Of a stretch of 64,000 nucleotides of DNA, positions 8,706 to 48,223 are shown piece after piece. The position numbers and the translations under genes were made by a program. Where the stretch lies: contig JAFIHG010000043.1 in NCBI GenBank assembly GCA_017848795.1, positions 1 through 64,000 on the forward strand. The letters run 5' to 3'. Positions within the stretch are counted from its first letter, which is position 1. Every line of letters starts with the position of its first letter. The DNA comes from Candidatus Nanopelagicales bacterium. Lineage in GTDB: Bacteria; Actinomycetota; Actinomycetes; S36-B12; CAIYMF01. The notes under the pieces are model-generated. The model searched no databases, was not told where the DNA came from, and worked only from the letters and a program-made list of their open reading frames with translations.

Positions 8706-9775
8706 CCGGTGCCACGCGGCGGCACGACCCGCAGCTGCGCGGGTTCGCCAGCGACAACTACTCCGGCGTCCACCCCGAGGTGCTCGAGGCCCTGCAGGTC
8801 GCCAACGACGGCCACCAGGTGTCGTACGGCGAGGACGACTACACCGCGCACCTGCAGGTGCTGTTCCGCCGGCACTTCGGCGAGCACGCCGACGCGTACC
8901 CGGTGTTCAACGGCACCGGCGCCAACGTCGTCGCCCTCCAGTCGGTCACCGACCGCTGGGCGTCGGTGATCTGCACGACGACCGCGCACATCCACGTCGA
9001 CGAGTGCGGCGCACCGGAGAAGGTGGGTGGGCTCAAGCTGCTTCCGGTCCCGACGCCGGACGGCAAGCTCACCCCCGAGCTGATCGACCGGGAGGCACGC
9101 GGCTTCGACGACGAGCACCGGGCCCAGCCGCAGGTGGTGTCGCTGACGCAGACCACCGAGCTGGGCACCGCCTACACCCCCGACGAGGTGCGGGCGGTCT
9201 GCGAACACGCCCACCGGCTCGGGATGCGGGTGCACGTCGACGGGTCACGACTGTCGAACGCGGCGGTGACGCTCGGCGTGCCGTTCCGGGAGTTCACCAC
9301 CGACCTCGGCGTCGATGTGCTGTCCTTCGGCGGCACCAAGAACGGGCTGCTGCTCGGCGAGGTCGTCGTGGTGCTCTCGCCGGAGGCGGCACGTGGGTTG
9401 CCGTACGTGCGCAAGTCGATGATGCAGCTCGCCTCGAAGATGCGGTTCCTGTCCGTGCAGTTCGACGCGCTGCTCTCGGGTGACCTGTGGCGGCGCAACG
9501 CCGCGCACGCGAACGCGATGGCGACCCGGCTCGCGGACGGCGTACGCGGACTGCCCGGGTTGACGGTCACCCAGCAGGTGCAGGCCAACGCCGTGTTCGC
9601 CGTACTGCCGCGCGAAGTCACCGCCCGGCTGCAGGAGAAGTTCCGGTTCTACACCTGGGACGAGCACACCGGCGAGGTGCGCTGGATGTGCTCGTTCGAC
9701 ACCACCGAGGACGACGTCGACGCGTTCGTCGCCGCGATCCGCGCCGAGCTGCTTCCCGCCAGCGGTTCCGGATGA
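8702..9775 (+). CDS. Threonine aldolase / beta-eliminating lyase-family PLP enzyme
   Basis: A 357-residue fold-type I PLP enzyme. GTG 8702 overlaps the upstream stop. The N-terminus RGFASDNYSGVHPEVLEAL is the typical beginning of low-specificity L-threonine aldolases. VFNGTGANVVAL binds the phosphate, HVDGSRLSNAA carries the PLP-ring aspartate, and SFGGTKNG contains the Schiff-base lysine. Family members cleave beta-hydroxy amino acids to glycine plus an aldehyde; the exact substrate is open. The last residues Ser-Gly and the TGA stop lie inside the palindrome at 9766-9824. Confidence 0.88.
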   Translation: MTGATRRHDPQLRGFASDNYSGVHPEVLEALQVANDGHQVSYGEDDYTAHLQVLFRRHFGEHADAYPVFNGTGANVVALQSVTDRWASVICTTTAHIHVDECGAPEKVGGLKLLPVPTPDGKLTPELIDREARGFDDEHRAQPQVVSLTQTTELGTAYTPDEVRAVCEHAHRLGMRVHVDGSRLSNAAVTLGVPFREFTTDLGVDVLSFGGTKNGLLLGEVVVVLSPEAARGLPYVRKSMMQLASKMRFLSVQFDALLSGDLWRRNAAHANAMATRLADGVRGLPGLTVTQQVQANAVFAVLPREVTARLQEKFRFYTWDEHTGEVRWMCSFDTTEDDVDAFVAAIRAELLPASGSG

Positions 9776-9824
9776 ATGTGGCAGGACTCCGCTAAGAGTG
9801 GAGTCCTGCCACATTCATCCGGAA
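9766..9824. repeat. 59-nt perfect palindromic element, family A copy 1, containing the upstream stop codon
   Basis: Arms 9766-9790 and 9800-9824 are perfectly complementary over 25 bp with a short loop that can pair further. The core is GGATGAATGTGGCAGGACTC. The element differs from the copy at 48165-48223 by one base, and that change keeps pairing as G-U. The threonine-aldolase-like gene ends in it (TCC GGA TGA), and the ribosome-binding site of the next gene begins directly after it. There is no T-tract. Confidence 0.95.
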
Positions 9825-14901: not shown

Positions 14902-15543
14902 ATGGAACTGACCCATTACGGCCACGCCTGCGTACTCGTCGAGACCGCGAAGTGCCGGCTGCTGTTCGACCCGGGCACCTTCGCCGACGGGTTCGAGGCG
15001 GCTCGCGACCTCGACGCGATCATCATCACCCACCAGCACGCGGACCACCTCGACGTCGAGCGGTTGCCGGCGCTGCTCGCCGCCAACCCCGATGCGGCGC
15101 TCGTGGCGGACGAGGGATCGCGCGCGGCGCTCGACACCATCGGGCAGGCGACCCGGGCGCGGATCGTCGGGCCGGGAGAGCGGCTCACGTTCGCAGGGGA
15201 GGCGGTGGACGTCGTCGGCGGCATCCACGCGACGGTCCATCCCGACATCCCGGAGATCACCAACAACGCGTTCGTCGTCGCCGACGGCGCCTTCTACCAC
15301 CCCGGGGACTCGTTCCACGTACCGGACGCCACGATCGACGTCATGGGTGCACCGGCGTCCGGGCCCTGGCTGAAGGTGAGCGAGGCGGTCGACTTCGTGC
15401 GGGCCGTCGAGCCGCGGGTCGCGGTGCCGATCCACGAGCTCGCGCTGGCCCGGCCGGCGATGCACTACGGGATCATGACCGAGCTGGCCCCGGCCGCCAC
15501 CACCGTGACGATCCTGCCCCGGGCGGAGGCCGCGCGCGTCTGA
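14902..15543 (+). CDS. MBL-fold metal-dependent hydrolase (UlaG/YtkL-like)
   Basis: A 213-residue metallo-beta-lactamase-fold protein. THYGHACVLVET opens the fold, and ITHQHADHLD supplies the HxHxDH zinc ligands. IHATVHPDIPE, FYHPGDSF (the bridging aspartate region) and PIHELALARP provide the remaining metal residues. Relatives include UlaG lactonase and uncharacterised YtkL proteins, so a lactone or phosphoester substrate is possible but unproven. The start may be ATG 14893 instead; 14902 is preferred because homology begins there. Convergent with the MFS gene, with only four bases between stops. Confidence 0.85.
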   Translation: MELTHYGHACVLVETAKCRLLFDPGTFADGFEAARDLDAIIITHQHADHLDVERLPALLAANPDAALVADEGSRAALDTIGQATRARIVGPGERLTFAGEAVDVVGGIHATVHPDIPEITNNAFVVADGAFYHPGDSFHVPDATIDVMGAPASGPWLKVSEAVDFVRAVEPRVAVPIHELALARPAMHYGIMTELAPAATTVTILPRAEAARV

Positions 15544-15547
15544 GCGC

Positions 15548-16789
15548 TCAGCGCTGCGGCGCCCGGGCCGCGTCCGGTGCGCTGTCGCTGGCGACCGGCT
15601 GCGTCTCGGGCGCGGGAGCCTCCGCGGCGCGCAGGTGACGGCGGCCGATCGTGATCACCACGAGCGCGATCGCGACCCCCGCGGCGCCCATGACGTACGG
15701 GATGCGGTCGCCGTACTGGTCGGAGAGGTGGCCGGCAAGCCAGGGCGCGATGGCGCCGCCGATGAAGCGCAGGAAGCTGTAGCCGGCGGAGGCGACGCCG
15801 CGTTCGACCGGCGCGACCTTCATCACCGCCTCGGTCACCAGGGTGTTGTTGACCCCGAGCAGCATCCCCGAGACCACGACCATGACGACGAGTACCGGCG
15901 GGGACTCGGTGAACACCGCCATGATCACCAGGACGAGGGTGAACAGCGTCAGTACGACGCGGATCATCCGTACGACGCCGAAACGGCGCTGCAGCACGGG
16001 AGCGGCGAACACCGAGGTGAGCGCGAGGGCCAGGCCCCAGCCGAAGAAGACGACCCCCAGCTGGATCGCGCCCATGTGCAGCGGGAACGGGGTGAAGGCG
16101 AGCAGCGTGAAGAACCCGAAGTTGTAGAACAGCGCCGTCAGACCCATCACGAGCAGCCCGCGGTGCCGTAGCGCCCGCAGCGGCTCGGCGAGGCTGCTGC
16201 GCCGGGCCGGGCGCGCCGTGGAGGGCAGCAGCACCAGGGTCGCGACGAAGCCCACCGCCATGAGCGTCGCGGTACCGAAGAACGGCGCGCGCCAGGACAC
16301 CTCGCCGAGCAACCCGCCGAGCAGCGGGCCGCTCGCGATGCCGATGCCGAGCGCCGCCTCGTACAAGATGATCGCCGACGCCACCCCGCCGCTGGCCGCG
16401 CCGACGATCGTGGCGAGCGCCGTCGCGATGAACAGCGCGTTGCCAAGGCCCCAGCCGGCGCGGAAGCCGACGATCTCGCCGATGGAGCCGGCGGCACCGG
16501 CGAGCGCGCTGAAGGTGACGACCAGTGCCAGGCCGAGCAGCAGCGTGCGTTTGGCGCCGAGGCGGCTCGCGGTCCAGCCGGTGATCAGCATGGCCGCGCC
16601 GGTGACGAGCATGTAGCTGGTGAACAGCAGCTCGACCTGGGCCTTGCTGGCGTCCATGCTCGCGCCGATCGCCGGCAGGATCGGGTCCACCAGGCCGATG
16701 CCCATGAACGCGATCACGGCGGCGAAGGCGACCGCCCAGACCGACCGCGGCTGGGAGAGCAGCCGGTTGCGCCCGATCGCGGCGCTCAC
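15548..16789 (-). CDS. MFS transporter (drug-efflux type)
   Basis: A 413-residue protein with twelve predicted helices. Helix 1 is followed by VDPILPAIGASM, typical of 12-TM drug/H+ antiporters. The cytoplasmic loop 2-3 motif is GWTASRLGAKRTLLLG, a form of the MFS signature, and RAGWGLGNALF fits motif B in helix 4. The C-terminal 25 residues are polar and disordered. The ATG overlaps the TGA of the upstream MarR regulator, so the two are one operon; this pairing suggests efflux of a compound that also relieves MarR repression. Confidence 0.9.
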   Translation of the reverse strand: MSAAIGRNRLLSQPRSVWAVAFAAVIAFMGIGLVDPILPAIGASMDASKAQVELLFTSYMLVTGAAMLITGWTASRLGAKRTLLLGLALVVTFSALAGAAGSIGEIVGFRAGWGLGNALFIATALATIVGAASGGVASAIILYEAALGIGIASGPLLGGLLGEVSWRAPFFGTATLMAVGFVATLVLLPSTARPARRSSLAEPLRALRHRGLLVMGLTALFYNFGFFTLLAFTPFPLHMGAIQLGVVFFGWGLALALTSVFAAPVLQRRFGVVRMIRVVLTLFTLVLVIMAVFTESPPVLVVMVVVSGMLLGVNNTLVTEAVMKVAPVERGVASAGYSFLRFIGGAIAPWLAGHLSDQYGDRIPYVMGAAGVAIALVVITIGRRHLRAAEAPAPETQPVASDSAPDAARAPQR

Positions 16790-17271
16790 GGGCGTCCTCC
16801 GACCGCGGAAGCGGCGCGCCGGCCCGTGGCGGCCGGTTCGGGCAGGGCTGCCGGTTCGAGCAGGTCGGCCAGTCGCTGCAGGGCGGGCAGCGCGCGCTCG
16901 ACGGCGTCGCGCTCCGGTGCGGTCAGCTGCGCGAGGGCGGCGCCGAGGAAGTCGGCGCGCGATGCCCGGAGCGCGGTCAGCAGGTCGACGCCGGCCGGAG
17001 CGAGCTCGACGACGGTCGCGCGGCCGTCGCCGGCGTCGGGACTGCGCCGTACCGACCCCTGCCCGGCCAGACGCTGCACCAGCGCCGACATCGTCGGTTG
17101 GGAGACCTGCAGCGCGCGGGCGAGCTCCGTCACACGGGCCGGGCCCTTGTCGTGCAGCCGGCTCAGCACGCGCGCCTGCGACAGCGAGGCTCCCTGCTCC
17201 ACCAGCCGGTCACGCAGCCGTACGAACAGCCGCGTGACGAGCTCGTTCAGCTCTTCGGCGTACGACGTCAC
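16786..17271 (-). CDS. MarR-family transcriptional regulator
   Basis: A 161-residue winged-helix protein. The core ASLSQARVLSRLHDKGPARVTELARALQVSQPTMSALVQRLAGQGSVRRSPDAGDGRATVVELAPAG is split here only for reading: SQARVLSRLHD is helix 2, VSQPTMSALVQRLAGQG the recognition helix, and DAGDGRATVVEL the wing. It is the first gene of a two-gene operon with an MFS pump. GTG 17271 lies seven bases after TATAGT, so the message is probably leaderless. The -10 box overlaps an inverted repeat, which would allow autorepression released by a ligand. Confidence 0.92.
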   Translation of the reverse strand: MTSYAEELNELVTRLFVRLRDRLVEQGASLSQARVLSRLHDKGPARVTELARALQVSQPTMSALVQRLAGQGSVRRSPDAGDGRATVVELAPAGVDLLTALRASRADFLGAALAQLTAPERDAVERALPALQRLADLLEPAALPEPAATGRRAASAVGGRP

Positions 17272-17278
17272 TCCGCCA

Positions 17279-17299
17279 ACTATATAGCCCGCCTATGCA
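17279..17299 (-). promoter_or_regulatory. Overlapping -10 box and MarR-type operator
   Basis: On the minus strand TATAGT (17279-17284) stands seven bases before the regulator's GTG. ATAG-N5-CTAT (17284-17296) forms the symmetric core of an AT-rich site within very GC-rich flanks. Binding here would block RNA polymerase at the MarR-MFS promoter. Confidence 0.55.
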
Positions 17300-17315
17300 A
17301 CTGCCCCACCCCTTA

Positions 17316-17380
17316 CCCGTGTCCCTGCTCGAAACGTCGTCAACTCGCGGAGTTGACGACGTTTCGAGCAGGGACACGGG
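17316..17380. repeat. 65-nt perfect palindrome with 31-bp stem, containing the dipeptidase stop codon
   Basis: Arms 17316-17346 and 17350-17380 pair perfectly around the loop GCG. The dipeptidase gene on the minus strand runs into the palindrome and takes its last dozen residues and its TGA (17340-17342) from it. No T-tract follows on either strand. The sequence is unlike family A (9766 and 48165), but the arrangement at a gene 3' end is the same. Confidence 0.95.
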
Positions 17381-18449
17381 CATCTTCGGCGGCGCGGAGT
17401 ACGCGCAGGGTGTTGCGCCAGCCGAGCTTGTCGAGGTCGGCCGGGCTCCAGCCGTTGTCGGTGAGCGCCTCCCAGAGCCGCGGGTAGCAGGACACGTCGT
17501 GCAGCCCCACCGGAAGCCCGTCCGTGCCGTCGAAGTCGCCCCCGATGCCGACGTGGTCGATCCCGGCGACCTCCCGGACGTGTTCGAGGTGGGCGACGAC
17601 GTCGGCGACGGTGGCCTCCGGCGGCGGGTCGGTACGGGCCACCTCGCGGCGCAGTGCCGTCATCGCCGCCCAGTCCCGCGGGTCGATCCCGCGTTCGCCG
17701 GCGAGCCCGTCGACGCCCAGCGCCCACTCGCGCCGCGACCGGGACACGAACTCGGCGACGAACGTCACCATGCACACGCCGCCACGCGCCGCGAGCGTCT
17801 CGAGCACGTCGTCGGGGACGTTGCGCGGGGTGTCGCACAGCGCGTACGCCGACGAGTGGCTGAACACCACGGGCGCGGTGCTGACCCGTAGCGCGTGGCG
17901 CATCACGTCGGCAGACACGTGCGAGAGGTCGACCAGCATGCCGAGCCGGTTCAGCTCGGCCACGACCTGCTCTCCGAACGGGCTCAGCCCGTGCAGCACC
18001 GCGACGTCCGTCGCCGAGTCCGCCCAGCTGGTGTTCTCGTTGTGGGTGAGGGTCAGGTAGCGCACGCCGAGGGCGTACGTCAGGCGCAGCACGGCCAGCG
18101 ACTCGCCGATGCTGTGCCCGCCCTCCATGCCGAGGAGCGAGGCGATCCGGCCCCGGGCGCGGACCGTCTCGACCTCGTCCGCAGTCGCCGCGAGCGCGAG
18201 CCGCTGCGGGTAGCGCGCGACGAGCCGGTGCACGAAGTCGATCTGCTCGAGCGTCGCACGTACCGCGTCGCCGCCGCGCAGCGCGCACGGCACGAACACC
18301 GACCAGAACTGCCCGGTGACACCGCCCGCCGCCAGGCGCGGCAGGTCGGTCTGCAGCCGCGGTTCGCCGCCGGCGAGGTCGACCGCGTCGAGGTCGTACC
18401 CGGCCAGCTCGCGCATCGCCCATGCCAGGTCGTTGTGCCCGTCGATCAC
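17340..18449 (-). CDS. Membrane dipeptidase (peptidase M19, renal dipeptidase family)
   Basis: A 369-residue zinc enzyme. DGHNDLAW at the N-terminus supplies the HxD ligands, LGMEGGHSIG the bridging glutamate, LVDLSHVS and FSHSSA the two central histidines, and GIGGDFDG the late aspartate. All are family landmarks, so activity on dipeptides, including D-amino acid ones, is likely; the natural substrate is unknown. There is no signal peptide. GTG 18449 lies six bases after a TACCGT box. The final residues after about 357 derive from the palindrome and are probably not part of the ancestral fold. Confidence 0.92.
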   Translation of the reverse strand: MIDGHNDLAWAMRELAGYDLDAVDLAGGEPRLQTDLPRLAAGGVTGQFWSVFVPCALRGGDAVRATLEQIDFVHRLVARYPQRLALAATADEVETVRARGRIASLLGMEGGHSIGESLAVLRLTYALGVRYLTLTHNENTSWADSATDVAVLHGLSPFGEQVVAELNRLGMLVDLSHVSADVMRHALRVSTAPVVFSHSSAYALCDTPRNVPDDVLETLAARGGVCMVTFVAEFVSRSRREWALGVDGLAGERGIDPRDWAAMTALRREVARTDPPPEATVADVVAHLEHVREVAGIDHVGIGGDFDGTDGLPVGLHDVSCYPRLWEALTDNGWSPADLDKLGWRNTLRVLRAAEDARVPARNVVNSAS

Positions 18450-18455
18450 CGCGCC

Positions 18456-18461
18456 ACGGTA
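18456..18461 (-). promoter_or_regulatory. -10 box of a leaderless promoter for the dipeptidase gene
   Basis: TACCGT on the minus strand is followed by six bases and the GTG start at 18449. No Shine-Dalgarno sequence is visible. Confidence 0.55.
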
Positions 18462-18514
18462 ACGCCACGCACCGCGGCGCAGGGGTGAGTCGTACGCTCC
18501 CGGCGGGAGGTCCG

Positions 18515-19012
18515 ATGGGGTACGACCCGGTGCAGTGGCACGACTTCGGCGTCGCGCTGGCCGGGGTGGGTGCGGCGCTGACCGGCCTGCTGTTCGTCGC
18601 CGTGTCGATCAACATCACCCGGATCCTCGCGGCGCCGTCGTTGCCCGTACGGGCCGGCGAGACGCTCACCATCCTCGTCTCGCAGGTGGTCGTGGCGCTG
18701 CTGCTGCTCGTCCCCGGCCAGTCGCACGTCGCGCTCGGCGTCGAGCTGGTGCTGTTCGGGCTCGTCCTCGCGACGGTGTTCCTCGTGACGCGCCTGCATG
18801 CCTACCGGGACCGTGAACCGACCGACCCCGCGATGTGGACCTACAGCCCGATGCTGATCATCACCGTGAGCACCGGACCGCTGCTGATCGGTGGCATCAC
18901 GTTGATCGCCGGTACGGGGGGCGGGCTGTACTGGGTGGTGGCCGGGGCCCTGCTCGGTGTCGTCGGAGCGAGCTCGAACGCCTGGATCTTCCTGGTCGAG
19001 ATCCTGCGCTGA
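18515..19012 (+). CDS. Small integral membrane protein, unknown function
   Basis: A 165-residue protein with GGGAGG just before ATG 18515. Four hydrophobic segments are visible, at about 10-35, 45-65, 70-88 and 107-160 (the last holding two helices), with short polar links. The start YDPVQWHDFGVALAGVGAALTGLLFVAVS and the loop RDREPTDPAMW recur in uncharacterised actinobacterial membrane proteins as far as I recall. No transporter or enzyme motif is visible. It is co-directional with the zinc-finger gene 36 bp downstream. Confidence 0.7.
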   Translation: MGYDPVQWHDFGVALAGVGAALTGLLFVAVSINITRILAAPSLPVRAGETLTILVSQVVVALLLLVPGQSHVALGVELVLFGLVLATVFLVTRLHAYRDREPTDPAMWTYSPMLIITVSTGPLLIGGITLIAGTGGGLYWVVAGALLGVVGASSNAWIFLVEILR

Positions 19013-19048
19013 GCGCCGCGGTCGAGCGCGATGGGGGAGCATGGGCCC

Positions 19049-19396
19049 ATGGACGCTTCGGGCGACGTCGACCTGGCAGCGGTGGCCGAGCTGCTGGCCG
19101 CCAAGGAGACCGAGCTCTCCACCGAGCTCGGCCTGCTGACCGCGCCACCCGACGCGAACGAGACGATCTCGTTCGGCAAGCGGGTGGGCGACGGGACGGC
19201 GATGGCCGTCGAGCGCTTCGCGAACGTCAGCGTCCACGACCGGTTGCGCAGCGTGCTGACCGACGTGCGCCGGGCACAGGCCAAGCTGCAGGAGCACAGC
19301 TACGGCCGCTGCGACAGCTGCGGGCAGCCGATCGGCGAGGCTCGCCTCGAGGCGCGGCCGTGGGCGGTGCGGTGCGTACGGTGCGCCGGAGCGTGA
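19049..19396 (+). CDS. DksA/TraR-type C4 zinc-finger protein
   Basis: A 115-residue protein (ATG 19049; ATG 19031 in frame is an alternative). The N-terminal two thirds are helical and acidic, fitting the DksA coiled coil, although the DxxDxA tip is not clear. The C-terminus has CDSCGQPIGEARLEARPWAVRCVRC, quoted here as CDSC plus CVRC with 17 residues between them, the zinc knuckle of the family. Such proteins bind RNA polymerase's secondary channel in proteobacteria; in actinobacteria RbpA/CarD act elsewhere, so the role is uncertain. Its stop is one base from the stop of the convergent ppa gene. Confidence 0.85.
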   Translation: MDASGDVDLAAVAELLAAKETELSTELGLLTAPPDANETISFGKRVGDGTAMAVERFANVSVHDRLRSVLTDVRRAQAKLQEHSYGRCDSCGQPIGEARLEARPWAVRCVRCAGA

Positions 19397-19397
19397 G

Positions 19398-19898
19398 TCA
19401 GGCGTCCGGTTCGGCGTGGGCTGCGGCGGCCCGGGCGAGCGAGGCCCGGATCTCCGCCTCCGCCTCGGTACGCCCGACCCAGGTGGCTCCCTCGACGCTC
19501 TTGCCCGGCTCGAGGTCCTTGTAGACCTCGAAGAAGTGCTGGATCTCCAGGCGTTCGAACTCGGGCAGGTGGTGGATGTCGCGCAGGTGCTCCTGGCGCG
19601 GGTCGCTGTAGGGGACCGCGATCACCTTGTCGTCGCCCCCCGCCTCGTCGGTCATCCGGAACATCCCGATCGCCCGGCAGCGGATCACGCACCCCGGGAA
19701 CGTCGGTTCCGCGAGCAGGACCATGACGTCGAGCGGGTCACCGTCCAGGCCGAGCGTGTCCTCGATGAACCCGTAGTCGTGCGGGTAGCGGGTCGCGGTG
19801 AAGAGCATGCGGTCCAGGCGGATCCGACCGGTCGCGTGGTCGACCTCGTACTTGTTGCGCTGCCCTCCCGGGATCTCGATGGTGACGTCGAAGTCCAC
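19398..19898 (-). CDS. ppa: Inorganic pyrophosphatase (family I)
   Basis: A 166-residue cytosolic enzyme hydrolysing pyrophosphate to two phosphates with Mg2+. The family signature [10 protein letters not shown] carries the catalytic aspartates. [18 protein letters not shown] is the N-terminal strand, [11 protein letters not shown] and [19 protein letters not shown] follow in canonical order. The length fits prokaryotic hexameric enzymes. ppa divergent from dacB is the usual actinobacterial arrangement. The C-terminal Ala-rich tail is short. Confidence 0.97.
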
Positions 19899-47287: not shown

Positions 47288-48174
47288 GCCTGTCGTACGA
47301 GCTGCGCGCCGCGCTCGACGCGGCGGGACTGGATCCGGCGTACGTCGAGTCGCTGGTGCGCGCGGCCGTCGCCGAGGACCTGGCCGGCGGGGTCGACGTC
47401 ACGTCCACCGCGACGGTGCCGGCGGAGCAGCGCTCCGTGCTCGAGCTCGTCGCGCGCGCGCCGGGGACGGTCGCCGGTGCACCCGTCGCGGCCGCCGTCT
47501 TCGAGGTCGTCTCCGGCGGTGATGCGACGGTACGGATCGACGTCCCCGACGGTGCGGCCGTGACGGCGGGGCAAGTGCTGGTGACGGTGGACGGGCGGAC
47601 CCGGGACCTGCTCACCGCCGAGCGCACCGCCCTCAACCTGTACGGCCACCTGTCCGGTGTCGCGACGGCGACAGCCGCGTGGGCGGCTGCGCTCGCCGGA
47701 TCGCGTACGCGGGTCCGCGACACCCGCAAGACGACTCCGGGCCTGCGGGCGCTGGAGAAGTACGCGGTCCGCTGCGGCGGCGGGGTCAACCACCGGATGG
47801 CGCTGTCGGACGCAGCGCTGGTCAAGGACAACCACGTACTCGCGGCTGGTGGCGTCGCCGAGGCGTTCCGTGCCGTGCGCACCCGCTGGCCGGGACTGCC
47901 CCTCGAGGTCGAGGTGGACTCGCTCGACCAGCTCGACGAGGTGCTCGACGCGGGGGCGGACCTGGTGCTGCTGGACAACTTCACGCCGGAACACATGGGC
48001 GAGGCCGTACGCCGTACCGCTGGGCGCGCGACCCTCGAGGCGTCCGGCGGGCTCGTCCTCGCCGATGCCCCCGCGGTCGTCGCGACCGGTGTCGACTACG
48101 TCGCCGTCGGCGCCCTCACCCACTCCGCCGCAGTTCTCGACATCGGCGCCGACCTCCGCCCCCTTTCCGGATGA
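47284..48174 (+). CDS. nadC: Quinolinate phosphoribosyltransferase (nicotinate-nucleotide pyrophosphorylase)
   Basis: A 296-residue enzyme turning quinolinate and PRPP into nicotinate mononucleotide. AERTALNLYGHLSGVAT, VRDTRKTTPGLRALEKYAVRCGG with the quinolinate Arg/Lys residues, HRMALSDAALVKDNH, VEVEVDS and LLDNF are all in canonical order. GTG 47284 overlaps nadB. The final Ser-Gly codons and TGA are part of palindrome A2 at 48165-48223, so the native end of the protein was replaced or slightly changed by the element. Confidence 0.96.
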   Translation: MSLSYELRAALDAAGLDPAYVESLVRAAVAEDLAGGVDVTSTATVPAEQRSVLELVARAPGTVAGAPVAAAVFEVVSGGDATVRIDVPDGAAVTAGQVLVTVDGRTRDLLTAERTALNLYGHLSGVATATAAWAAALAGSRTRVRDTRKTTPGLRALEKYAVRCGGGVNHRMALSDAALVKDNHVLAAGGVAEAFRAVRTRWPGLPLEVEVDSLDQLDEVLDAGADLVLLDNFTPEHMGEAVRRTAGRATLEASGGLVLADAPAVVATGVDYVAVGALTHSAAVLDIGADLRPLSG

Positions 48175-48223
48175 ATGTGGCAGGACTCCGCTAAGAGCGG
48201 AGTCCTGCCACATTCATCCGGAA
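48165..48223. repeat. 59-nt perfect palindromic element, family A copy 2, containing the nadC stop codon
   Basis: Arms 48165-48192 and 48196-48223 pair perfectly over 28 bp around a 3-nt loop AAG. It matches the copy at 9766-9824 at all but one position. The TGA of nadC (TCC GGA TGA) lies in the left arm, in the same phase as at the other copy. coaX starts 24 bases later with its own ribosome-binding site, AGGAAC. Confidence 0.95.

Follow-up and report, generated by a model that had tools for sequence, protein, structure and literature searches.

The gene for an M19 membrane dipeptidase (17340 to 18449, minus strand; Pfam PF01244, E 1.6e-113) ends inside a long perfect palindrome, which raises the question of what this palindrome is and how a gene came to take its stop codon from it. 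In the 64-kb window, the whole stretch of DNA that was analysed, an inverted-repeat scan found 31-nt arms at 17316-17346 and 17350-17380 that are 100% complementary and separated by a 3-nt spacer, GCG. It is the longest perfect one among the 10 inverted repeats of the window with arms no more than 60 nt apart. The minus-strand reading frame of the dipeptidase meets the palindrome at 17380 and reaches a TGA at 17342-17340, 41 nt from the palindrome's upstream edge. The palindrome encodes codon 357 (partial) to codon 369, that is, 12 full codons and the stop, giving the C-terminal tail RVPARNVVNSAS. Both the perfect 31-bp palindrome and the dozen or so residues drawn from it were described in the earlier note, and both were confirmed. 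The dipeptidase gene was not found in any of the 20 relatives searched, and the C-terminus was therefore compared with solved structures. Homology to the nearest one, 3id7, extends no further than residue 358 of 369, and the Pfam M19 match no further than residue 352. Conserved homology, which would have spoken against the reading in the earlier note, is thus not carried through the palindrome.

As RNA, the 65 nt are predicted to fold at -63.7 kcal/mol, compared with -20.1 ± 2.8 kcal/mol for 200 shuffled sequences (z -15.4). The gene that follows on the same strand encodes a MarR-type regulator (16786 to 17271, minus strand) and lies 44 nt past the palindrome. Just beyond the hairpin, the dipeptidase transcript has a G-rich stretch (TAAGGGGTGGGGC..., 17295 to 17315, minus strand), and no U-tract follows it; the region from 15500 to 19500 has no terminator-like sites. 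The sole Rfam match, mir-4433, was below the gathering score, occurred on both strands and was dismissed as a hairpin look-alike.

The palindrome was called a second one, unrelated to the 59-nt family of the window. Its sequence is indeed unlike that family, but it is not a lone palindrome. A two-arm pattern, GTCCCTGCTCGA-N-TCGAGCAGGGAC, which requires exact 12-nt outer arms, occurs at 63 places in its own genome (3.445 Mb, 57 contigs, 72% GC) and in none of the other 194 of the 195 genomes searched. The GC content and the nearest homologs may point to an actinobacterium. We refer to these copies as family A. At the dipeptidase, the element spans 17316 to 17380 (65 bp, no strand assigned) and the 55-bp core within the outer arms spans 17321 to 17375. 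The core is 55 nt long in 61 of the 62 copies that were read and 53 nt in one; the copy left out is at 15855-15909 of contig C20. Other searches of the same genome agree: the element as query gave at least 80 matches over both strands, 40 of the 76 first-look candidates having been scored. When as many as 3 mismatches were allowed, a 24-nt half-site matched 61 times on the forward and 59 times on the reverse strand, while the reversed control pattern gave no match. A looser scan of a tiled 1.23 Mb, in which each half could differ at as many as 7 positions, returned 46 sites, 38 of them palindromes. The copies are dispersed over many contigs, with clustering in places, for example five within 22 kb on contig C29. 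No match to the element was found in the plasmids or phages searched, and lone exact half-matches in a Clostridia MAG (L068) and in viral contigs (L259) lie outside any palindrome and were taken as chance.

Perfect palindromes can originate as chimeras, and the possibility was considered that this one is a hairpin artefact of sequencing or assembly. The 62 copies that were read have different flanks and diverged arms, and yet another copy is interrupted by an insertion of the IS1595 type with a flanking 8-bp repeat; an artefact is hardly credible. The split copy lies at 13578-14769 of contig C7 (L091). The inserted element has the Pfam domain DDE_Tnp_IS1595 and a zinc ribbon, and the repeat beside it is AGCGACGT.

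Comparison of the copies showed where the structure is kept. The outer 19 bp of the core form a perfect stem in 48 of 61 copies and the outer 24 bp in 26 of 61. The arms agree beyond shuffles at columns 13-15 (at column 14, in 53 of 61 copies versus 31.3), consistent with preserved pairing of the outer stem. At columns 20-21 of the inner arm, pairing is no commoner than in shuffles, which fits a possible mixing of half-elements near the loop. The ends of the element are its inverted outer arms, i.e. terminal inverted repeats, and the flanks are G-rich in the outward direction, with the left flank rich in C and the right flank rich in G. The outer five bases, read outward, are ACGCG, ACGGG, GCGGG or GCGCG at 112 of 124 ends, and a G-rich stretch past the hairpin, like the one beside the dipeptidase, is seen at many copies. 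The idea that the element is seated in the loop of a native terminator received no support, as complementarity between the two flanks of a site does not exceed that of shuffled pairs (5.36 versus 5.27 ± 0.18; 319 of 1000 shuffles as high).

The placement of the copies relative to genes was evaluated on 1.56 Mb (45% of the genome), taken from contigs and places with known hits. A total of 1368 genes were called there by our own codon-usage script rather than a standard caller, and the background, 188,034 intergenic bases, was counted on the same DNA. Among the 62 copies, 35 lie between tandem genes, 22 between convergent genes, 2 between divergent genes and 3 inside a gene. Of the 59 non-genic copies, 52 overlap a stop codon or sit within 18 nt of one, compared with 9.4% of intergenic bases (binomial p 9e-46); 44 of these 52 are at 0-15 nt, and 12 of the 44 directly abut the stop. 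Divergent gaps hold only the 2 of 59 copies, versus 25.5% of intergenic bases. The enrichment of long palindromes at stop codons that the earlier note foresaw is therefore present for this family.

The copies might instead be sites for a chromosome-organising or regulatory protein that binds the constant outer arms, with gene 3' ends merely harmless places for them. The fixed spacing, the variable inner part and the constant outer arms, the constancy of whose first 12 columns is imposed by the search pattern, would suit such a protein. We consider this very improbable, since nearly all copies are within 18 nt of stops and not anywhere in intergenic DNA, the copies are clustered in places, as on contig C29, and a congener is nearly without them.

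Nine genes code into one of the 62 copies. Six of them end at the element-internal TGA, 41 nt in, and three read right through: hisS, an ECF-type double ATPase, both identified by Pfam, and a gene which we take, by its look, to be a ROK-type kinase. In the ATPase gene (162888-164531 of contig C21, L080), the copy is in frame within the linker that joins both ABC domains. The element-coded residues are missing from the aligned homologs, for hisS in 14 relatives and for the ATPase in 13. For annotation, this carries a warning that shared C-terminal tails such as RVPARNVVNSAS derive from the element and not from protein homology.

The main alternative is that family A consists of ordinary bidirectional terminators which are not mobile and are alike through gene conversion or selection. 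Such terminators would be expected to have a strong hairpin just past stops and between convergent genes, as the copies do. Moreover, copies that lie close together resemble each other slightly more (p 0.04 for the 37 pairs within 20 kb) and one pair has 14 nt of flank in common. However, other gene ends of this genome bear hairpins of unrelated sequence, indicating that termination needs neither the family A sequence nor its fixed core length. The lack of a U-tract at the dipeptidase copy and the nine genes that code into a copy, one of them in an interdomain linker, also argue against this alternative, which we regard as unlikely. The pair with the common flank, at 26060-27786 of contig C2 (L106), consists of two identical copies that share the 14 nt on their left and bracket a 1.6-kb gene region; the region is absent from the congener, where its two outer genes are convergent neighbours.

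It is from the distribution of the copies that we infer that family A has been mobile. Three points speak for movement: the lineage-restricted copy number, the copies within coding sequence and the comparison with the congener, G001. In 472 kb of congener DNA, a match to a flanking gene was found for ten family A sites, and seven of these were read; the congener DNA is without the element at 6 of the 7 and holds a relic at the other, a one-armed remnant in the position that corresponds to the C39 37243 copy. The congener is distant, its matched proteins being 56-83% identical (those above 55% were kept), and the element-free sites are not exact empty sites. With one arm position of the pattern left open, a single diverged family A copy with the arms GTACCTGCTCGA was found in the congener. 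Against a classical transposon are the lack of a target-site duplication, with no excess of 2-9 nt direct repeats flanking 61 copies, and the lack, within the 1.56 Mb that were read, of a longer element with the same ends: the 123 exact 13-nt arms there are all accounted for and none belongs to an autonomous relative. In addition, the RAYT transposase domain (Y1_Tnp, PF01797) gave no match in the assembly, which is 98.28% complete, and was detected in E. coli and four other control genomes.

These properties were compared with those of known repeats, above all the REP elements (GTAG and CGTC types) as described in PMC3733652. According to that paper, REPs adjoin the 3' ends of open reading frames, most convergent ones within 20 bp; they lie mostly between convergent or same-direction genes and are sometimes intragenic. 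They can supply a stop codon (section 15) and can be targets of insertion sequences, and some families are species-specific. Family A resembles REPs as portrayed there in being dispersed and palindromic, with 63 copies, 59 of the 62 read not in a called gene. It has the same preference for 3' ends, as seen in the counts at stops and the convergent and tandem gaps given above, and like REPs it supplies stops, has some intragenic copies, includes one split by an insertion sequence and has a species-restricted form. The stop-codon placement of family A, including the supply of the stop, is thus already known from that paper as REP behaviour. In E. coli, inverted repeats are reported to be enriched immediately downstream of stop codons (PMC6060812), and earlier work cited in PMC12306157 holds that a REP can reduce translation when its distance from the stop is below 16 nt.

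There are also differences. Family A is without the unpaired tag, GTAG or CGTC, that REPs have at one of their ends, and it is symmetric, whereas REPs are directional. Its length is 65 bp and its perfect stem reaches 31 bp, whereas REP units are 20-40 bp long and have stems of 5-13 bp in the GTAG type and of 8-9 bp in the CGTC type (PMC3733652). RAYT-linked REPs differ further in that the family A genome has no Y1 transposase; for CGTC-type REPs, the same paper states a dedicated transposase as an open question, none being known. Because family A differs in tag, size and RAYT, we call family A a REP-like variant and not a REP.

Other systems match in part. Family A has inverted arms, a less conserved middle and a single hairpin, as does the REPIN (PMC3116915), but the genome is without RAYT and the arms apparently have no REP-type hairpin of their own. 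The Rickettsia palindromic elements, as summarised in PMC3733652, are likewise inserted in frame in proteins, whereas family A is mostly beside genes, with 9 of 62 copies coding and most of these at gene ends. Intrinsic terminators also place a stable hairpin directly past stops; they differ in that the dipeptidase copy has no U-tract and one sequence recurs over about 63 sites. A MITE would have the same terminal inverted repeats, but would be expected to show the target-site duplication that is missing at the 61 sets of flanks, and an integron attC cassette array is unlike copies scattered over many contigs. A search of open-licence PMC full text, judged by title and the start of the abstract, found no paper describing such a family.

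Taken with the evidence on placement, movement and structure, we consider it probable that family A is a non-autonomous, dispersed, REP-like repeat that was inserted at gene 3' ends and acts there as a 3'-end hairpin limiting read-through both ways. Copies would have been inserted into gene 3' ends during the history of the lineage, including the end of the dipeptidase gene, where the element now gives the last 12 codons and the stop. RNA from either strand would fold into the 31-bp hairpin, which, judging by its position and stability, most likely curbs read-through from both sides. At the dipeptidase, read-through into the MarR-MFS gene pair would be limited, and the hairpin would also shield the mRNA end.

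The earlier note went beyond this locus and proposed a general process that forms or places long perfect palindromes at gene 3' ends. Its first half was not borne out. The tiled 1.23 Mb contain 59 long palindromes, of which 29 belong to family A, 8 to family B, 16 to family C, 5 to family D and 1 to none of these. Since 58 of the 59 fall into four dispersed repeat families, the process is the amplification of a few repeats and not the formation of palindromes as such. The second half, placement, stands in part. Family B, the 59-nt family, has 68 matches over both strands genome-wide, and most of its copies that were read also contain a stop or lie just past one, in keeping with the suggestion that both families follow the same rule. 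Among its 24 copies that were read, the stop is 10 nt inside in 8 and 33 nt inside in 1, and 10 more are at 0-15 nt; the remainder comprises 2 at greater distances, of which one is within a gene, and 3 in divergent gaps. The window holds two copies, 9766-9824 and 48165-48223, both with a gene TGA exactly 10 nt inside. The exact family B pattern was not found in the 59 other genomes searched, nor was there a match in the viral contigs searched.

A separate family, AACTGCCTTGATC..., belongs to the congener: it occurs at 11 places in G001 and is missing from the other 39 genomes searched. It follows the rule partly, in 3 of the 7 copies read: the stop is 11 nt inside in 2 and lies 14 nt before the copy in 1, and the remaining 4 are either at least 23 nt away or without an adjacent called stop. 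The rule does not extend to family C, as 0 of its 16 copies in the tiled DNA are within 18 nt of a called stop.

A wider reading is that each species of the genus keeps its own families of long, near-perfect palindromes, copied near stops without RAYT or target duplication. We hold this to be unlikely. If it were true, one small element would deliver the stop codon and also end transcripts arriving from either side, and the process would recognise the 3' ends of genes in themselves, through the C-rich and G-rich flanks, structure or termination state, because at least three unrelated sequences have the same target. The genome is unusually clean material for the study of REP-type repeats without a known mobiliser. 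It has about 63 nearly fixed-size, near-identical copies of family A and two unrelated families placed alike, and the congener has a different repertoire, so that target choice and later selection can be told apart by strain comparison.

Several minor features of the other families were also recorded. Family C (GGTCGAGCGTAGTCGAGACCA, mostly with a 12-nt loop) is represented in the window at 1101-1154 and at 16 places in the tiled 1.23 Mb, and some of its copies are paired, 126-236 nt apart. Family D (GTTGATCA..., loops of 5-11 nt) occurs at five places on contigs C41 and C7; three follow a stop at a distance of 27-34 nt, another overlaps one and the last is divergent. In the congener's family (L252-L258), several copies have a common stretch, CAACTGC...CTGACCCGA...GCGAT, that continues on one side.
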